Of a stretch of 64,000 nucleotides of DNA, positions 38,738 through 46,721 are shown piece by piece (the stretch's first letter is position 1; every line of letters starts with the position of its first letter). Where the stretch lies: NCBI GenBank assembly GCA_947499555.1, contig CANMOU010000003.1:384979-448978 (forward strand), read 5' to 3'. Source of the stretch: an uncultured Roseovarius sp. GTDB taxonomy: Bacteria; Pseudomonadota; Alphaproteobacteria; Rhodobacterales; Rhodobacteraceae. The translations under genes and the position numbers were made by a program. The notes under the pieces were generated by a model that was given only the letters and a program-made list of their open reading frames with translations, ran no database searches and was not told the origin of the DNA.

Positions 38738-39751
38738 TCAGAGGCCGTTAAGAAAGGCGGTCAGATTTGTGCCCAAAGCTTCTGAGACATACCCACCCTC
38801 CTGAACAAGAACCATGGGCAGACCAAGGGACGCAATCGCTCGGGCGATGTGAGTAAACCCTTCCGTTGTCAAAGCAAGCCCCTGAAACGGGTCTTCTTCG
38901 TGGGCATCAAGGCCCAGGGCAACAACGACGACAGTGCAATTTTCATCCGCAATTCTTTGCAATGCAGTATCGAGTGCCTTGAGGATCCCGTGATTGCCTG
39001 TGCCACGGGGCAGCGGTACGTTCAAATTGGCACCTTTCCCGTCGCCTTCTCCGATTTCATCGGCATGGCCCCAGAAAAAAGGGTAAAACCCGTCTGGATC
39101 GGTATGCAGCGAGAGGGTCAGAACATCGCCGCGCGCGTAAAAGATGCCCTGTGTGCCATTTCCGTGATGAACATCCACATCCAGAATGGCCGGACGCAGG
39201 CCCGCGTCCAGCAACCGTTGTGCGGCAATAGCGGCGTTGTTGAAAAAGCAAAACCCGCCGGCCTGATCGGCAAAGGCATGGTGGCCCGGTGGTCGGCAAA
39301 GCGCGTAGACGCATCTGTCACCCGCAAGAACCGCATCCGTGGCAGCAATCGCCGACTGGGCAGAGGCGTAAGCGGCGGCATAGGTATGGGGACCGATGGG
39401 ACAGGCCGTATCGGCCTGGTGATAGCCTGCTTGCCCTACCGGCGAGCTTGGATACCCATCCGATCTTGCGCGGGGGTGCACATTGGGAATGACTTCCGGT
39501 GCGGCGCCCGGCAAAGCTGACCACCGGGCATGGATTGTCTGCAGGAAGCTCAGGTATCGTGCGTCATGAACTGCTGCAATCGGCGCAAGACCCGCATCCG
39601 GCGGTTTCGAAAACTGACACCCGGCAGCTTCCGCGCCTTGCTTCAACAAGGCGATCCTCTCAACCTGTTCCGGTGACGGCTTGAGCATTCCCTGATGCAG
39701 AAATGTCTGAGGGTTATGCGTGGCTTGGATGGAATCGAGAAAGGCTTTCAT
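38738..39751 (-). CDS. Histone-deacetylase-family protein (acetylpolyamine amidohydrolase-like)
   Basis: All class II deacetylase hallmarks appear: RPPGHHAF with the catalytic His157-His158 pair, the zinc ligands in LDVDVHHGNG (Asp193 and His195), and a third Asp in VALGLDAHEEDPF. Length 337 fits the bacterial APAH/HdaH branch. The bacterial members deacetylate acetylpolyamines or related small amides. It diverges from the Rieske operon across a 95-base gap, which may or may not imply functional linkage. Confidence 0.9.
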   Translation of the reverse strand: MKAFLDSIQATHNPQTFLHQGMLKPSPEQVERIALLKQGAEAAGCQFSKPPDAGLAPIAAVHDARYLSFLQTIHARWSALPGAAPEVIPNVHPRARSDGYPSSPVGQAGYHQADTACPIGPHTYAAAYASAQSAIAATDAVLAGDRCVYALCRPPGHHAFADQAGGFCFFNNAAIAAQRLLDAGLRPAILDVDVHHGNGTQGIFYARGDVLTLSLHTDPDGFYPFFWGHADEIGEGDGKGANLNVPLPRGTGNHGILKALDTALQRIADENCTVVVVALGLDAHEEDPFQGLALTTEGFTHIARAIASLGLPMVLVQEGGYVSEALGTNLTAFLNGL

Positions 39752-39846: not shown

Positions 39847-41457
39847 ATGAAAAAGGTCTCAGTCGCGACATTTGCGGATTTGCCGGATCGCGAACCGCAA
39901 TACGCGCTGGTGGGAGAGGTTGATCTTGTGGTTGTCCGTTTTGATGATGCCGTTTCGGTGATGTATGGCCGTTGCCTGCATCGCGGGGCGCTGATGTCCG
40001 ACGGCTTTGTGCAGGGCGACAATCTGATTTGTGGATTGCATTACTGGGACTATCGCCTTGATAGCGGTGTCTCGGAATACAACAATGCCGAAGCACTTCC
40101 CAAATTCACCTGCTGGATCGAAGAGGGCACCGTCTGGGTGGATGAAGACGAGGTCGCGTCCTGGGCCAGGGATCACCCTCAGCCTTTCCAGCGCGACACA
40201 TATCTGGGCCTATATGCAGACACCAGCCACGGCACCGAGGAAGAGCCGCATAACGCGCTTATTCAGCGCTATGCGCGCGAGGGGCTGTCGAAGACCGGTC
40301 ATCACGGCGTTGTCGACAGCATGGGCGTGCCGCGCGCGGAGTTGCCTGACTGGGACGATATCCAGATCATCACCGCGCAATTGCACCGCCCGCCTTTACT
40401 GGATGATGAGACCGTGGGCACTGAGGTGATCATTGGCCCCAATGCCCAGAAACCCTTGAAGCTGGATATCCCGCTTTTTGTCTCGGACATGAGCTTTGGG
40501 GCGCTGAGCGAACCGGCGAAACTGGCGCTTGCGCGAGGGGCTGAACTGGCCGGGACAGGCATCTGCTCGGGCGAAGGTGGCATGCTGCCTGAAGAGCAGG
40601 AAGCCAATTCGCGCTATTTCTACGAACTTGCCTCCGCGCGGTTCGGCTTTGACTGGGACAAGCTTGATCGCGTGCAGGCTTTTCATTTCAAAGGCGGGCA
40701 GGGGGCCAAGACCGGCACGGGCGGGCATCTTCCCGGAGCCAAGGTCAAAGGCAAGATCGCGGATGTGCGTGGGCTCAAGGAAGGCGAGGATGCGATTTCG
40801 CCCTCTCGCTTCCCTGATTGGACAGAACCCAGCCAGATCAAGGACTTCGCGGACGAGGTCCGGGATCGTACCGGCGGCATTCCCATCGGCTACAAGCTGA
40901 GTGCGCAGCATATCGAGAAGGATATCGACGCAGCTCTCGAGGTCGGTGTGGATTACATCATCCTTGATGGGCGTGGCGGCGGAACGGGTGCCGCACCTCT
41001 GATTTTCCGAGACAATATCTCGGTGCCGACAATCCCGGCACTGGCCCGCGCGCGGCGGCATCTGGATCGTCTTGAGCGCTCGGATATCACGCTCGTCATA
41101 ACCGGCGGGCTGCGCAAGCCGGTGGATTTCGTCAAGGCTGTGGCGCTTGGGGCGGATGCCGTGGCGATCTCGAATTCCGCCATGCAGGCCATTGGTTGCA
41201 TCGCCATGCGGGCCTGTCACACCAACAACTGCCCGGTGGGCATCGCCACGCAGAAGCCGCATCTGGTGAGCCGTCTGGTGGTCGAGAAATCGGCCAGGCA
41301 ATTGGCCAACTTCTTTGAAGCTTCGGTGGAACTGATGCAGGTCATGGCGCGGGCTTGTGGCCATGATCACCTGTCGAAATTCAATGCAGATGACCTGACA
41401 ACCTGGAAACGCGAAATGGCGGAGCTTTCGGGCGTTGCGTATGGAGGCGTCCAATGA
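39847..41457 (+). CDS. Rieske-glutamate synthase (FMN) fusion protein
   Basis: Residues 1-105 are a Rieske [2Fe-2S] domain with both ligand boxes: C43-L-H45 and C62-G-L-H65. Residues about 140-530 are the FMN-binding glutamate synthase domain, with PLFVSDMSFGALSEPAK, GEGGMLPEE, KGGQGAKTGTGGHLPG, and DGRGGGTGAAPL. The [3Fe-4S]-type cysteines are C451-x5-C457-x4-C462. The usual N-terminal amidotransferase domain and the NADPH subunit are absent. The Rieske domain therefore probably replaces a pyridine-nucleotide partner as electron donor or acceptor. First gene of a six-gene operon with overlapping or nearly touching genes. The reaction is unknown. Confidence 0.9.
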   Translation: MKKVSVATFADLPDREPQYALVGEVDLVVVRFDDAVSVMYGRCLHRGALMSDGFVQGDNLICGLHYWDYRLDSGVSEYNNAEALPKFTCWIEEGTVWVDEDEVASWARDHPQPFQRDTYLGLYADTSHGTEEEPHNALIQRYAREGLSKTGHHGVVDSMGVPRAELPDWDDIQIITAQLHRPPLLDDETVGTEVIIGPNAQKPLKLDIPLFVSDMSFGALSEPAKLALARGAELAGTGICSGEGGMLPEEQEANSRYFYELASARFGFDWDKLDRVQAFHFKGGQGAKTGTGGHLPGAKVKGKIADVRGLKEGEDAISPSRFPDWTEPSQIKDFADEVRDRTGGIPIGYKLSAQHIEKDIDAALEVGVDYIILDGRGGGTGAAPLIFRDNISVPTIPALARARRHLDRLERSDITLVITGGLRKPVDFVKAVALGADAVAISNSAMQAIGCIAMRACHTNNCPVGIATQKPHLVSRLVVEKSARQLANFFEASVELMQVMARACGHDHLSKFNADDLTTWKREMAELSGVAYGGVQ

Positions 41458-41819
41458 TGGCCGCTGGGCTGGTGATCTTTGCTGAATACTGGCTCATGAT
41501 CGGCGGTGTCGTGGCGCTATTGTTTCTGACCATCGGCATTGACCGGATCGATGAGGACGCAAGGGGGGCTTACATCTTTCGCCCGCTTCTGGTGCCCGGT
41601 GTCTTGCTCATCTGGCCGCTCGTGTTGTGGCGATGGTACGCGCTCGAGACTGGGCGTGCTGATGAAACCAAACGCTACAAGGCGGTGCGCGGGGCGCATG
41701 GTCTCATAGCGGTGGGCATGGCGCTTTCTATCGCGATCATCATCGCTTTCGGGCTTGGCATCAAGCAAACCTGGCCGGATCACATCGCGCCAGAGCGGCT
41801 GTCGGAGGCGGGGCAATGA
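41454..41819 (+). CDS. Small membrane protein of the Rieske operon, 121 aa
   Basis: The ATG overlaps the upstream stop by 4 bases, and its own stop overlaps the next start (ATGA). Three hydrophobic helices are likely: residues about 5-26, 45-60 and 84-105. Between helices 1 and 2 lies IDRIDEDARGAYIFRPLLVPG and after helix 2 a short LWRWYALETGR loop. No metal or haem ligand pattern is evident. It may be a subunit anchoring the cytochrome-like protein encoded next. I recognise no family. Confidence 0.75.
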   Translation: MMAAGLVIFAEYWLMIGGVVALLFLTIGIDRIDEDARGAYIFRPLLVPGVLLIWPLVLWRWYALETGRADETKRYKAVRGAHGLIAVGMALSIAIIIAFGLGIKQTWPDHIAPERLSEAGQ

Positions 41820-42859
41820 GCGTCAAATACATCCCCGTCCAGTGGAACCCGAACAAGTGGGTCTATGACGTCTTCATGCTGGCCGGCGTGGCGGCGTTTC
41901 TGTGGATTTTCATCCATGTCACACCCGAAATCCTAAGCCACGAGCGCCCAATCAACAGCCAGGTGCACAATGCGCGGGCTTTTGGGGCCTGCGCGTTCCT
42001 CATGCTGTCGATAACCCTGGCCATCGGCCCATTGGCCAAACTCGACACACGCTTCATGCCGCTGCTGTACAACAGGCGGCATTTCGGCGTGATGACGGCC
42101 TTTGTGGCCACCGCGCATGCAGGCTACATCCTGAACTGGTATTTCGCCTTTTCTTTCGTGCCCAAATGGGACGCGCTTATCCTGTCCAACACCAGCTATG
42201 GTCAGCTTCTGGGCTTTCCGTTTGAGGCGCTGGGGGCATTTGCACTTGTCATTCTGTTGATCTTGGCAGCGACCAGCCATGATTTCTGGCTCAAATTCCT
42301 CACAGCACCAGTCTGGAAGCGCCTGCATTACCTGATCTATGCCGCCTATATTGCGGTTGTGGGTCATATCAGCCTTGGGATTTTGCAAGATCAGCAAAGC
42401 CTGTTCTTGCCGGTGTTTTTCATTGCCACGGCCTGGATCGTGGCACTTCTGCATGTCTGGGCCTTTATGGCAGAACGCAAGAAGGGCGACCCGTTGGCCG
42501 TGGCGGCGGGGGATTGGATGCGCATCTGTCAGGCAGATGAGATCGAAGAAGGACGCGCCCGCATCGCGGTTTTGCCCGATGGCAAACGCGTGGCGGTCTT
42601 TAAGCATGAAGGCAAGCTTTCGGCCATATCGAACGCCTGTGCGCACCAAAACGGCCCTCTGGGCGAAGGGCGCATCATTGATTGCCTCGTGACGTGCCCC
42701 TGGCACGGGTTTCAATACCGGGTGACCGATGGCAAATCCCCGGCACCCTTCACCGAGAAAATTCCAACCTACAATCTGCGTGTCGAGAATGGCGCGGTCC
42801 TGGTCGATCCCAAGGCCAACCCACCCGGCACGCATGTTGATCCTGTCGAGGTGGCGTGA
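41816..42859 (+). CDS. Ferric-reductase-like membrane protein with C-terminal Rieske domain
   Basis: Residues 1-220 carry about six membrane helices of the ferric-reductase-like transmembrane family. The candidate haem histidines include His101, His171, His184 and His213 (in ATAHAGY, KRLHYLIY, VVGHISLG, ALLHVWAF). Residues about 230-345 are a Rieske domain with C275-A-H277 and C294-P-W-H297, the loop QNGPLGEG being identical to that of the thiamine-enzyme gene downstream. A b-type cytochrome plus [2Fe-2S] electron conduit across the membrane is the natural reading. The gene overlaps its neighbours on both sides. Confidence 0.9.
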   Translation: MSVKYIPVQWNPNKWVYDVFMLAGVAAFLWIFIHVTPEILSHERPINSQVHNARAFGACAFLMLSITLAIGPLAKLDTRFMPLLYNRRHFGVMTAFVATAHAGYILNWYFAFSFVPKWDALILSNTSYGQLLGFPFEALGAFALVILLILAATSHDFWLKFLTAPVWKRLHYLIYAAYIAVVGHISLGILQDQQSLFLPVFFIATAWIVALLHVWAFMAERKKGDPLAVAAGDWMRICQADEIEEGRARIAVLPDGKRVAVFKHEGKLSAISNACAHQNGPLGEGRIIDCLVTCPWHGFQYRVTDGKSPAPFTEKIPTYNLRVENGAVLVDPKANPPGTHVDPVEVA

Positions 42860-43623
42860 TGGCGGACAAGAAAGACAAACCGTTTTTCGTGGGATATCTG
42901 ACGGCGCCGGATGGGTTGCGTAGTTTTCTCATCGGCATCGGCATCGGCTTGGTCCTGCTGATGGCGGGTGTGGGTCTCGGTATTGGTGCGACGCAAGATG
43001 ATCCGGGCAATGGCGCGTTTCGCGGGGATTATGGCCGTCAGACCGTGACTGGGGTTATGGAACTGACGCCTTACCCCGTGGTGCGTGTCACCCAAGGCAG
43101 CGAACATGTCCCCGAGGGGCGCACGCTCATGCTTTCGGCGGGGGGCAAGCAAAGTCTGATGAACCGGGTTCGGGATCTGGACGGGCAGCTTGTCACGGTA
43201 TCCGGCACTATTCTCGACCGTGGTGAACTGGATATGCTGCAGGTGCGTGGTGGGCAAAACGGGATTGCGCCGGCAGAAGGTGATGCCCCGGAGATGGAAC
43301 GCGAAGAGCTTGGCCGCTGGCGCATCGCGGGTGAGATCTGTGATGGCAAATGCCTCGCCGGGGCCATGCGCCCGGGCGTCGGGATTGCACATAAAGCTTG
43401 TGCTAATCTTTGCCTGATCGGGGACATCCCGCCGGTTTTCGTCAGCACGCAGCCCGTTGAAGGCAGTGAGTTTTTGCTTGTCGTCGGTCCGGATGGCACG
43501 ATCTTCCCCAAATCGGCCTATGACCTAGTCGCGGCCTATATATCGGTTGAAGGCAAGGTGGTCCGCCACGGCGATCTTCTGGTCTTCCATCTTGAACCTG
43601 ACACAGCGGAGCTGGTGCAGTGA
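42859..43623 (+). CDS. Membrane-anchored protein with a conserved-looking Cys/His motif
   Basis: I start it at the ATG sharing a base with the upstream stop (TGATG). A GTG three bases earlier is also open. One helix at residues 22-43, preceded by Lys-rich sequence, suggests a cytoplasmic N-terminus and a periplasmic body. The body has an OB-like strand-rich section (VTGVMELTPYPVVRVTQG) and the motif C161-x3-C165 ... H178-x2-C181-x3-C185, followed by IPPVFV. Such a pattern could hold a metal, haem or disulfides. I recognise the flavour of an unnamed redox-associated family but cannot name it. Confidence 0.78.
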   Translation: MADKKDKPFFVGYLTAPDGLRSFLIGIGIGLVLLMAGVGLGIGATQDDPGNGAFRGDYGRQTVTGVMELTPYPVVRVTQGSEHVPEGRTLMLSAGGKQSLMNRVRDLDGQLVTVSGTILDRGELDMLQVRGGQNGIAPAEGDAPEMEREELGRWRIAGEICDGKCLAGAMRPGVGIAHKACANLCLIGDIPPVFVSTQPVEGSEFLLVVGPDGTIFPKSAYDLVAAYISVEGKVVRHGDLLVFHLEPDTAELVQ

Positions 43624-43889
43624 TCCGGCGGCTTATCTGGACCCTGATTGCCGCATTTGCCGGTGTTGCCCTGCTCTACATCTCCCGTTTCTGGGTGTTT
43701 CAGCTTTGGGGCCGAGAGGGGCTTTTCGGCATCGAGGCCCTGCGCCCCCAGGGCGGTTTGCTCGCGCAATGGCTGCGCGGTACGGAATTCGCCGATTTTG
43801 AACTGGTCATCTGGGTCGTGCTCAGCTTTCTGGCCCTCACCATCCTGCAAAAGATTTACGATCTGACCAGTGGCGGCAGCCACGACTGA
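43620..43889 (+). CDS. Small two-helix membrane protein of the Rieske operon, 89 aa
   Basis: A GTG start overlaps the upstream stop (GTGA). Two helices are predicted: residues about 5-28 and 61-80, joined by a soluble segment GREGLFGIEALRPQGG. No cofactor-binding residues are apparent. The gene is 11 bases before the Rieske-thiamine enzyme. Its conserved position suggests an accessory subunit. It is not a member of any family I can identify. Confidence 0.72.
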   Translation: MIRRLIWTLIAAFAGVALLYISRFWVFQLWGREGLFGIEALRPQGGLLAQWLRGTEFADFELVIWVVLSFLALTILQKIYDLTSGGSHD

Positions 43890-43900
43890 AAGGACAAACC

Positions 43901-45880
43901 ATGGCAAACGAGGCACTTGACTGGATTTCCGTGGGCCATGTGGAGGACTTGCCCGAAGGCCGGGTGAAAACGGTCACGGCGCGCACCACCTCGATTTGTC
44001 TGGTGCATTTCGATGGGCAATGGGCTGCGATGGACAATCGCTGCCCGCATCAGAACGGACCATTGGGGGAAGGCTCCATCGAAAAGGGCGTGGATGACCA
44101 ATGCTGGGTCCGTTGCCCCTGGCACGGGTGGGATTTCGATCCGCTGACCGGCAAGCCCCCAGGTGGGCACGAAGATACCGGGCAAAAGATGTTTCCGATT
44201 GATGTTCGCGATGGTGAGATTTTCGTGGGGCTCGAACCGGAACCTGACGCCCCGCGCACGATCAGCGATGCGATGGTGGAAACTTTCGTGAATTGGGGGC
44301 TCAAATCCGTCTTTGGCATGGTGGGCCACTCGAACCTTGGTTTGGCCGAGGCCATCCGGCTCAAAGTGGGTAGCAAAGACCTCAAATACTACGGTATCCG
44401 CCACGAAGGCGCAGCGGCCTTTGCCGCATCGGCCTATGGAAAACTTACCGGCATGCCCGCGGGGTGCCTGACAATTGCTGGACCGGGGGCCACCAATCTT
44501 CTCACGGGCATGTGGGACGCCAAGGTGGATCGCGCACCGGTTCTGGCGCTGACCGGCCAGGTGCAGACCCAGGTGCTTGGCCCCGGTGCGTTTCAGGACA
44601 TTGATCTGGCGTCTGCCTTTGCCGCTGTGTCGCGTTTTTCGCAGCCGGTTCTGGGCGGTGCCAATGCGGTGGAATTGGCGGCCCTGGCCTGCAAAAATGC
44701 GATTGTTCACCAGGATGTGGCGCATCTTATCTTTCCCGACGACGTCCAAACCGTGCCGTCTGATGTGAAGGCCAGCCATCCTGAGGGTCGCCTGAGCCGG
44801 GTTGAGATCACGCCGTCGGCGCAGGACATGGAGGCGGCGGTCGACAAGATCGGCGCAGCAAAGCGTCCGATCATCATCGTCGGTCACGGCGCCTTTGATG
44901 CTCGCGAAAAAATCGTTGCGCTGGCAGAAAAGCTTAGCGCGCCAGTCCTGACTACGTTCAAGGCCAAAGGGCTTGTGCCTGATGACCACCCGAACGCAGC
45001 CGGTGTGCTCGGTCGCTCGGGCACGCCGATTGCAAGCTGGTTCATGAATGAAACGGATTTAATCATTGCCTTGGGCGCAAGCTTTTCAAATCATTCGGGA
45101 ATTGAACCGTCCAAACCCATCATTCAGGTCGATTATGACCGGATGCAGCTTGGCAAGTTCCATCCCGTGGACCTGCCCATCTGGGGAGAGGTGGGAACGG
45201 TGTGTGATCTGCTGAACAGCCGTGCCAAGCCGCATCCGAAGGCGGAGGACCAGAAAAGCGAGCTGGCCGAGCGCTGGCAAATTTGGCGGGACGAGAAGAC
45301 CACAAGGCTGACCGAAGATCATGGCACCGGCCTGCATTCGGCAGCTGTCTTTAAGGCCTTGTCCGAGCTTGCGCCTGATGATGCGATATTTGCGGTGGAT
45401 GTGGGAAACAACACGTATTCCTTCGGCCGATACCTCGAAACCAAGGGCACTCAACGGGTCTTGATGTCAGGCTACCTTGGGTCCATCGGGTTCGGCTTTC
45501 CCGCAGCACTTGGCGCCTGGGCTGCGACTCAGGATTTCGGCGCTTTGAAAGGTCGCAAAGTCATCTCGATTTCCGGCGACGGCGGCTTTGGCCAATATCC
45601 GATGGAGTTCACCACGGCAGTCAAATACGGTATGAACATCACCCATCTTCTCTTGCATAACGGAGAGCTTGGAAAGATCTCGAAAGAACAGCGTGCAGGC
45701 GAATGGCCGGTGTGGGAAACCGACCTTGTGAACCCGCCGTTTTCCGCCTTTGCGCGGCTTTGCGGTGGTGTCGGCGAAAAGGTTGCCGAAGCTGATCAGA
45801 TCGCACCGGTCCTGAGGGCCGCGTTGGCCGCCGATGGCCCGGCACTGGTCGAGTTCATGACCGACGCAGAATTGGTCTGA
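43901..45880 (+). CDS. Rieske-thiamine diphosphate enzyme fusion protein
   Basis: A GAAAGGAC site precedes the ATG. Residues 1-112 form a Rieske domain (C48-P-H50 and C72-P-W-H75). Residues about 118-655 form an acetolactate synthase/pyruvate oxidase-type enzyme. Glu169 in RHEGAAAFAASAYG is the predicted activating Glu, and the diphosphate motif is SGDGGFGQYPMEF, closing with LLLHNGELG where the family usually has Asn-Asn. Rieske fusion is unusual for this family, whose redox members use FAD and quinone or oxygen. It probably oxidises a 2-oxoacid-type substrate and passes electrons to [2Fe-2S]. It is the last gene of the operon. Confidence 0.9.
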   Translation: MANEALDWISVGHVEDLPEGRVKTVTARTTSICLVHFDGQWAAMDNRCPHQNGPLGEGSIEKGVDDQCWVRCPWHGWDFDPLTGKPPGGHEDTGQKMFPIDVRDGEIFVGLEPEPDAPRTISDAMVETFVNWGLKSVFGMVGHSNLGLAEAIRLKVGSKDLKYYGIRHEGAAAFAASAYGKLTGMPAGCLTIAGPGATNLLTGMWDAKVDRAPVLALTGQVQTQVLGPGAFQDIDLASAFAAVSRFSQPVLGGANAVELAALACKNAIVHQDVAHLIFPDDVQTVPSDVKASHPEGRLSRVEITPSAQDMEAAVDKIGAAKRPIIIVGHGAFDAREKIVALAEKLSAPVLTTFKAKGLVPDDHPNAAGVLGRSGTPIASWFMNETDLIIALGASFSNHSGIEPSKPIIQVDYDRMQLGKFHPVDLPIWGEVGTVCDLLNSRAKPHPKAEDQKSELAERWQIWRDEKTTRLTEDHGTGLHSAAVFKALSELAPDDAIFAVDVGNNTYSFGRYLETKGTQRVLMSGYLGSIGFGFPAALGAWAATQDFGALKGRKVISISGDGGFGQYPMEFTTAVKYGMNITHLLLHNGELGKISKEQRAGEWPVWETDLVNPPFSAFARLCGGVGEKVAEADQIAPVLRAALAADGPALVEFMTDAELV

Positions 45881-46067: not shown

Positions 46068-46721
46068 ATGACTGATTTCGCCTCACGCAGAACGATGATG
46101 GTCGACACGCAGATCCGACCATCTGACGTTACAAAATTTCCGATTATTGACGCGATGTTATCGGTGCCACGAGAAGCCTTCGTGCCGGATGCTTTGCGTG
46201 AGGCTGCGTATGTTGGTGAAAACATCGACCTGGGCGGCGGTCGCGTCATGCTGGAGCCGCGCACGCTGGCCAAGCTTCTGGATGCGCTGGATATCCAGAA
46301 TGATGAACTGGTGCTCGATCTGGGCTCTGGCCTGGGGTATTCGTCTGCGGTCATCGCCCATATGGCAGAGGCCGTTATCGCCGTCGAAAATGATGAGGCT
46401 CGCGCGTCCGAGGCACAGAGCATCCTGTCCGATCAGGGTGCGGACAATGTTGTCGTGCATGAAGGTGCGCTGAGCGAAGGCGCATCAGAGCATGGTCCTT
46501 ATGACGTGATCGTCGTGCAGGGCGCGATTCAACATCTGCCCCAAGCTATCGCGGATCAGCTTAAGGACGGTGGTCGCATCGGGTCCCTATTTGCCGAGAA
46601 CGCTCTTGGCGTTGCCCGGGTCGGCTATAAGATTGACGGAGAAATAAATTGGCGGTTTGCGTTCAATGCAGGTGCGCCTGTGCTTGAAGGATTCGAACGC
46701 CACGCCGCTTTCACCTTGTGA
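46068..46721 (+). CDS. pcm: Protein-L-isoaspartate O-methyltransferase family protein
   Basis: The 217-residue protein has the PCMT-type AdoMet site LVLDLGSGLGYSSAVIAHM (residues about 85-103) and IQHLPQAIADQLKDGGRIGSLF split over the 'GG' turn. The MMVDTQIRPSDVTKFPIIDAML start is the alphaproteobacterial form. Enzymes of this family repair isoaspartyl residues, although the short alphaproteobacterial ones may have other targets. It is followed directly by tolC, a conserved neighbourhood. Confidence 0.88.
   Translation: MTDFASRRTMMVDTQIRPSDVTKFPIIDAMLSVPREAFVPDALREAAYVGENIDLGGGRVMLEPRTLAKLLDALDIQNDELVLDLGSGLGYSSAVIAHMAEAVIAVENDEARASEAQSILSDQGADNVVVHEGALSEGASEHGPYDVIVVQGAIQHLPQAIADQLKDGGRIGSLFAENALGVARVGYKIDGEINWRFAFNAGAPVLEGFERHAAFTL

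Follow-up and report, generated by a model that had tools for sequence, protein, structure and literature searches.

A recurrent gene module in which glutamate-synthase-like, pyruvate-oxidase-like and ferric-reductase-like proteins each carry a Rieske domain, and its possible role in ionic, osmotic or pH stress

What might a bacterium gain from an operon in which three different proteins each carry a Rieske domain? The question is raised by six genes, all on the + strand, at positions 39847-45880 (coordinates given by an initial annotation made from the letters alone) of a 64,000-nucleotide stretch of contig CANMOU010000003.1 from an uncultured Roseovarius sp., hereafter the window. Rieske clusters have their usual homes in bc complexes and dioxygenases; here they are fused to a glutamate-synthase (GltS)-like protein (GLT), a ferric-reductase-domain membrane protein (FRE) and a thiamine diphosphate (ThDP) enzyme (TPP), accompanied by three further proteins, m121, m255 and m89. 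We find that these genes belong to a real, recurrent electron-transfer module that is undescribed as far as our literature searches show. We tentatively favour, with a confidence that stops just short of calling it probable, a Rieske-wired redox module of two separable parts, most likely serving in ionic or osmotic or pH stress; this physiological role is offered as a supported hypothesis rather than a result.

A scan of a collection of 84,980 species with a TPP profile recovered at least 524 relatives, the best 80 of which, a set biased toward the window, were kept. Of these loci 79 appear to be alphaproteobacterial, and one (L127) is from a gammaproteobacterial metagenome-assembled genome. 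Within 10 kb of TPP, GLT, FRE and m255 were all present in 35 of the 80 loci, GLT without FRE and m255 in 24, FRE and m255 without GLT in nine, and none of them in 12, these linkage counts being lower bounds as less than 18 kb is available around 24 of the 80 loci. FRE and m255 were never apart (together in 44 of the 44 loci holding either). The 59 GLT matches include three of CDGSH type (L102, L108, L116) and a remote homologue of 36% identity (L064), all four counted among the 24 GLT-only loci, where several contigs are short; in three others the match begins within the Rieske domain or beyond it (L054 and L090, both cut by contig ends, and L106, from residue 37). Five arrangements were seen across the 35 loci: GLT-FRE-m255-TPP (18 loci), GLT-TPP-FRE-m255 (10), FRE-m255-GLT-TPP (three), TPP divergent from GLT-FRE-m255 (three) and TPP-GLT-FRE-m255 (one).

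Co-occurrence was then counted in a draw of 385 alphaproteobacterial genomes, which overlaps the 80 loci (L118 = G119, L130 = G166). m255 was present in 17 genomes (16 solid; the weak one, G393, with E 4e-4 and no FRE in the region, was excluded from the test), TPP in 15 and GLT in 14. Ten of the last were counted as Rieske type; the other four match only from about residue 128, three of them with a CDGSH motif (the fourth is G225/L157). Seven of the 385 genomes held m255, TPP and Rieske-type GLT together, giving Fisher p values of 2.5e-11 for TPP with GLT, 5e-11 for m255 with GLT and 2.6e-7 for m255 with TPP. These became 2.5e-7, 2.5e-7 and 2.5e-4 respectively after removal of the window's own genome and one genome per same-genus pair, and 5.6e-6, 7.3e-8 and 1.7e-4 when G369 was also left out, a genome counted as Rieske-type though contig ends cut its GLT and TPP before their Rieske parts. 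All tests thus stay significant (largest p 2.5e-4), and co-occurrence extends to unlinked genes, which lie on three contigs in G146 and tens of kb apart in G032 and G166. The association of GLT, FRE, m255 and TPP is real, and the claim of the initial annotation that the three Rieske fusions belong together is borne out both by genome-level co-occurrence and by proximity through five gene orders.

The genes nevertheless fall into two separable modules, GLT with TPP and an FRE core, and several distributions weigh against a closer union. Of the 15 genomes with TPP, seven lack Rieske-type GLT, and of the 16 solid m255 genomes, eight have neither TPP nor Rieske-type GLT. One obligate six-subunit complex, as first envisaged, is not supported, given the m255 genomes with neither partner and the 24 loci with GLT and TPP and no FRE within 10 kb. 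Separate distribution in other genomes, which the initial annotation had held to tell against its proposal, was found in part, and the idea of a complex is weakened because the modules are partly distributed separately, yet the genes still co-occur above chance. m255 occurs in only 2 of 24 genomes of the window's genus, window included, a patchiness typical of accessory, mobile functions. The same patchiness, and the finding of the modules apart in many genomes, would also suit two unrelated modules that merely travel together by horizontal transfer; we regard this as very improbable in view of proximity kept through five gene orders, overlapping reading frames, co-occurrence even when unlinked and a single cofactor domain common to all three proteins.

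In the window, the six open reading frames and their domain assignments hold as first annotated, both in the list of open reading frames and in Pfam. The genes overlap by 4 bp at the first four junctions and m89 and TPP are separated by 11 bp, so the six are probably co-transcribed. The Rieske ligands (C43, H45, C62 and H65 in GLT; C275, H277, C294 and H297 in FRE; C48, H50, C72 and H75 in TPP) are invariant in all aligned sequences (7, 61 and 5, respectively) and lie exactly at the motifs 43-65, 275-297 and 48-75 annotated before, and the loop QNGPLGEG is common to FRE and TPP and not in GLT, again as had been noticed. None of the three motifs has the extra cysteines that mark bc1-type proteins, which would be consistent with a low potential.

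GLT (39847-41457, 536 amino acids) matches Pfam Rieske (3e-11) and Glu_synthase (9e-91), and otherwise only overlapping families of the flavin mononucleotide (FMN) domain. Relative to GltS it keeps the FMN domain and the three [3Fe-4S] cysteines (C451, C457 and C462, invariant in seven aligned sequences; GCIAMRACHTNNC against GCVMMRACHLDTC in the alignment), whereas Pfam found no glutaminase domain in its 536 residues and the motif GGQLPG reads GGHLPG. K288, R308 and E243 align with GltS, with Q replaced by H at 294, positions that we take to touch 2-oxoglutarate. The cell probably has a glutamate synthase besides GLT, since the same genome has a 1526-amino-acid open frame with a Glu_synthase match, the size of a normal GltB.

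The nearest described relatives of GLT are proteins with CDGSH domains, whose GltS core is 70-73% identical to that of GLT; they form type 5 of the CISD proteins, with function unstated in the accessible text (PMC3174974; also PMC5859297). In place of the two successive CDGSH motifs that precede their GltS domain, GLT has a Rieske domain. Loci with two CDGSH motifs on the same GLT core include L048, from a Vibrio plasmid, as well as L102 (confirmed by Pfam zf-CDGSH, 8e-20), L108 and L116, and in the last three the CDGSH-CDGSH-GLT gene lies directly 5' of a Rieske-TPP gene. In an IQ-TREE phylogeny of 66 GLT cores and two very distant outgroups (excluding L155, L157, two duplicate haloarchaeal rows, L064 and fragments below 480 amino acids), the seven CDGSH forms group together (ultrafast bootstrap 97), their sister group being three haloarchaeal Rieske forms (99), and the remaining Rieske forms branch outside; in FastTree the CDGSH clade has a support of 0.93 and its pairing with haloarchaea only 0.34. 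The simplest reading, though weakly rooted, would be that the Rieske form is ancestral and was replaced once by CDGSH. Such a swap within the same operon amounts to a natural experiment on the role of these [2Fe-2S] domains.

TPP (43901-45880, 659 amino acids) matches Pfam Rieske (1.2e-17) and TPP_N/M/C (1e-28 to 4e-35). Its best NCBIfam match is PRK08611, which we take to be the Bacillus subtilis YdaP type, at 380 bits, below the curated cut-off of 742; the best acetolactate synthase model scores 274 bits. Compared with PoxB, the pyruvate oxidase (pyruvate:quinone oxidoreductase) of Escherichia coli, TPP has the full-length three-domain ThDP fold including the catalytic glutamate (E169/F231/Q232/V501/E596 align with PoxB E50/F112/Q113/V380/E469) and an N-terminal Rieske domain as an addition. 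The alignment ends at PoxB residue 527 of 572, and TPP itself ends five residues later; the missing stretch is presumably the membrane-binding peptide of PoxB. As these last ~45 residues are missing and a Rieske domain is present, we infer that the latter, rather than a membrane peptide and quinone, takes the electrons of TPP. PoxB F465 is replaced by K592, invariant in five aligned sequences, which hints at a substrate with an anionic side chain, so that a dicarboxylate could be favoured over pyruvate.

FRE (41816-42859, 347 amino acids) matches Pfam Ferric_reduct (6e-12) and Rieske (1.6e-15, C-terminal). Hydropathy places helices at 19-37, 55-73, 134-152, 172-190 and 196-214, and a sixth was placed by eye at about 92-110, around H101. 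Across 61 sequences H89, H101, H155, H171 and H184 are invariant and H213 is kept in 97%. In YedZ and STEAP1 an Arg replaces the first canonical His while the other His are kept (PMC3591440); R87, H101, H171 and H184 of FRE, conserved in the 61 sequences, fit this rule, a match that points to a single haem b as the firm prediction and makes the haem-bearing membrane subunit of the initial annotation likely. Two NOX-like haem sites were considered and set aside, the pattern being YedZ/STEAP-like instead, though H89 is an extra invariant His. The charges of the FRE loops (K75, R79, R87 and R88; K160, K168 and R169; ERKK after the last helix), read by the positive-inside rule, would put the Rieske domain on the cytoplasmic side of the membrane and the m255 soluble part on the periplasmic side. 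A Rieske fusion of a ferric-reductase domain is not new as such, since one was drawn in 2013 as model M4, with no function given in the accessible text (PMC3591440); FRE differs by its fixed partner m255 and its linkage to ThDP and GltS-like enzymes, and the legend also ties FMN to M4, which is thus possibly another architecture.

The three remaining products had been described as small membrane proteins, which fits m121 and m89 and not m255. The latter (42856-43623, 255 amino acids, GTG start) has one N-terminal helix (25-43) followed by a predicted periplasmic soluble part of ~200 residues, in which D163, C166, G169, M171, P173, G176, H179, C182 and C186 are invariant in 40 sequences. No Pfam family was found across the 40 members (best E 0.02, in one to four of them), and neither the single sequence nor a profile gave anything meaningful among solved structures (best E 0.03). 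m121 (41454-41819, 121 amino acids, ~3 hydrophobic segments) has only a sub-threshold Pfam match, to DUF2339, and its homologues usually lie directly 5' of FRE. The two-helix protein m89 (43620-43889, 89 amino acids, GTG start) has no Pfam match and occurs in part of the loci, a 70-82-amino-acid protein of another cluster lying near that place elsewhere.

Put together, these features suggest a route for electrons. In the cytoplasm, TPP would oxidatively decarboxylate a 2-oxoacid (pyruvate by homology, or a dicarboxylate given the pocket lysine) and pass the electrons to its own Rieske domain and on to that of GLT, which would exchange electrons, in the simplest case turning an imine into an amino acid such as glutamate. 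In an alternative branch, they would go from TPP to the cytoplasmic Rieske domain of FRE, to haem and to m255, outward across the membrane, with m121 and m89 as putative helpers of this arm; surplus electrons could leave that way, an outlet that many relatives lack. Under stress, 2-oxoacid oxidation would feed glutamate formation without NADPH. The chain first proposed, from 2-oxoacid oxidation via [2Fe-2S] centres to a cytochrome and a flavin, is plausible. If true, Rieske clusters would serve as exchangeable connectors between metabolic enzymes and a single haem protein of the membrane.

The case for ionic or osmotic stress comes from the neighbours of the module which, like the CDGSH replacement and the haloarchaeal form described below, lie beyond what the window alone could show. 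A PF00999 (Na+/H+) antiporter homologue (one cluster member confirmed in Pfam) is present in 28 of the 80 loci, with a 62-amino-acid fragment in L095; in 25 loci it stands 5' of GLT in the same orientation, at a distance of 3-152 bp, in two just after TPP and in one just before TPP. OpgC, which serves osmoregulated periplasmic glucans, is found near six FRE cores that stand without linked GLT or TPP (by Pfam in L042 and L015, record annotation in L049 and L050, and cluster in L035 and L043). Clusters of extracytoplasmic function (ECF) sigma factors and zf-HC2 anti-sigma factors occur in 7 and 8 of 99 loci, respectively, one of each being confirmed. Both yerD and ydaP are named in the SigB regulon of B. 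subtilis, YerD being assigned to osmotic resistance (PMC7824861, PMC7522486). As a separate observation, in two genomes of one alphaproteobacterial family (L042:9560-15933 and L043:2028-10022) the FRE-m255 core forms a row with opgC and genes for a kdp-type K+-ATPase; L042 has a KdpC gene and a KdpB-like E1-E2 ATPase next to it, and L043 has a KdpA gene.

Related genes extend beyond the proteobacteria. Haloarchaeal plasmids encode Rieske-TPP at 57-59% identity (four records) and Rieske-GLT at 61-62% (three records), both being present in three records; the two are near each other in Salinirubellus and Halorarius and ~17 kb apart in Halorubrum, and no GLT is annotated within 12 kb of TPP in Haloferax larsenii. 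The Halorarius order is TPP, an antiporter ~44 bp downstream, a K+-channel gene on the opposite strand, and GLT. Plasmid 1 of Mycobacterium abscessus subsp. bolletii (L161, 5271-11902) has a Rieske-TPP of 53.5% identity, annotated only as a thiamine pyrophosphate-binding protein, and a cation:proton antiporter lies ~3 kb from it on the opposite strand; a gene resembling NADPH-dependent FMN reductases is also near it. Between the alphaproteobacterial and haloarchaeal antiporters the similarity is remote (26% over 151 residues, E 1e-7 in a database of three sequences), and BLAST shows no real resemblance of the mycobacterial antiporter to either of them; outside the alphaproteobacteria the association is therefore either convergent or coincidental.

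A number of points count against a role in ionic stress. The antiporter excess over background (1.1 of 80 loci expected from 56 matches in ~73 Mb of 21 genomes, 13 of the window's genus; binomial p 9e-33) was computed post hoc, counts the L095 fragment and ignores the shared ancestry of the loci, and no antiporter lies beside the window's own locus. Likewise, the OpgC count (6 of 14 fetched FRE-core stretches, in 3 of 9 lineages as grouped by us, against 0.03 expected) is post hoc and ignores shared ancestry of related loci. The genes yerD and ydaP would correspond to GLT and TPP only by family similarity. By tblastn of plasmid records, no haloarchaeal plasmid matched the FRE membrane part or m255, the five records that matched FRE or m255 being all Rhizobium, and besides ion transport, sulfur and oxidant-stress functions are frequent among the annotations around the haloarchaeal genes: islands on five plasmids (L046, L047, L160, L162, L163) carry TauE/SafE, MerA, TusA, DsrE, rhodanese, pirin and redoxin genes, varying by record.

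These last neighbours would suit the same redox module serving in defence against oxidants or reactive sulfur (hypochlorite, persulfide, electrophiles), with FRE and m255 reducing damaged periplasmic groups, powered by TPP and GLT. MsrQ is the haem subunit of periplasmic methionine-sulfoxide reductase, and FRE scores 40 bits to its model PRK05419, below the curated cut-off of 130; conserved cysteines in m255 point the same way, as do the sigma factor, DUF1109, chlorite dismutase and NrsF annotated near the FRE core of a Rhizobium plasmid (L050:9821-12291). We judge this reading rather unlikely, as the annotations around two FRE cores on Rhizobium plasmids include no MsrP-like molybdoenzyme (no dedicated search was made), and background tests covered only the ion and osmotic links. 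An ordinary catabolic operon is likewise doubtful, in fact unlikely: here TPP and the GltS-like enzyme would degrade one compound (e.g. a 2-oxoacid or amino acid), with FRE as respiratory outlet and the stress link incidental. Amino-acid ABC- or TRAP-type transporter genes do lie near L084, L089, L101 and L110, and L031 and L034 (named by eye except DctP of L034), and a homologue of malic enzyme comes after the FRE core in L015/L035 (the L072 member confirmed in Pfam), yet apart from genes of the module itself the antiporter cluster alone occurs in more than 14 of 99 loci, with no transporter or catabolic cluster above 14. We thus retain the stress-related redox module as our tentative reading. 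A fuller version, unlikely to hold in all its parts, is an NAD(P)H-independent system in which TPP drives synthesis of an amino acid (e.g. glutamate) by GLT, the FRE complex is a periplasmic pressure valve in many bacteria, and antiporter and K+-glutamate restore redox and pH balance in salt or alkaline shock in bacteria and haloarchaea.

The novelty first claimed stands within the open-licence literature searched: titles and abstract starts held no description of the operon or module and no published assignment of the cluster, and Rieske-GltS fusions are unmentioned in the accessible text of PMC8097209. The module gives a testable role to Rieske- and CDGSH-GltS fusions, Rieske-fused ferric-reductase domains and the m255 family, for which our literature searches found no function.

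Other candidates and surroundings can be dealt with briefly. Anti-phage defence was rejected, PADLOC models having no match to the four of six operon proteins scanned. Low-identity GltS matches on plasmids were rejected as the same system, the five opened, out of 454 leftover records below 60% identity, being glxBC/glnT-type loci by annotation. An unfused pyruvate-oxidase-like and GltS-like pair as general ancestor was not borne out: of the 30 best GltS-like loci, drawn from 67 positive genomes, one had a remote TPP match (25%) within 1.5 kb, and at that distance no TPP gene was detected in the other 29. One such pair lies on a Ruegeria plasmid (L165:6040-9390), an unfused ThDP gene followed by a GltS-like gene with N-terminal hydrophobic segments, near cytochrome oxidase genes; the pairing is not general. 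In Tateyamaria-type loci (L092, L093, L098, L100, L113) a putative 5-oxoprolinase (pxp) set, assigned by eye, lies near TPP on the opposite strand; conversion of 5-oxoproline to glutamate would fit. Between 39600 and 46100 of the window, scans gave two promoter-like sites against 2.0 expected and nine terminator-like sites against 6.2 +/- 2.7. The operon is flanked by genes for a histone-deacetylase-superfamily protein (38738-39751, - strand) and a protein-isoaspartate-methyltransferase-like protein (46068-46721, + strand), both of which have counterparts around the module in the close relative L014.

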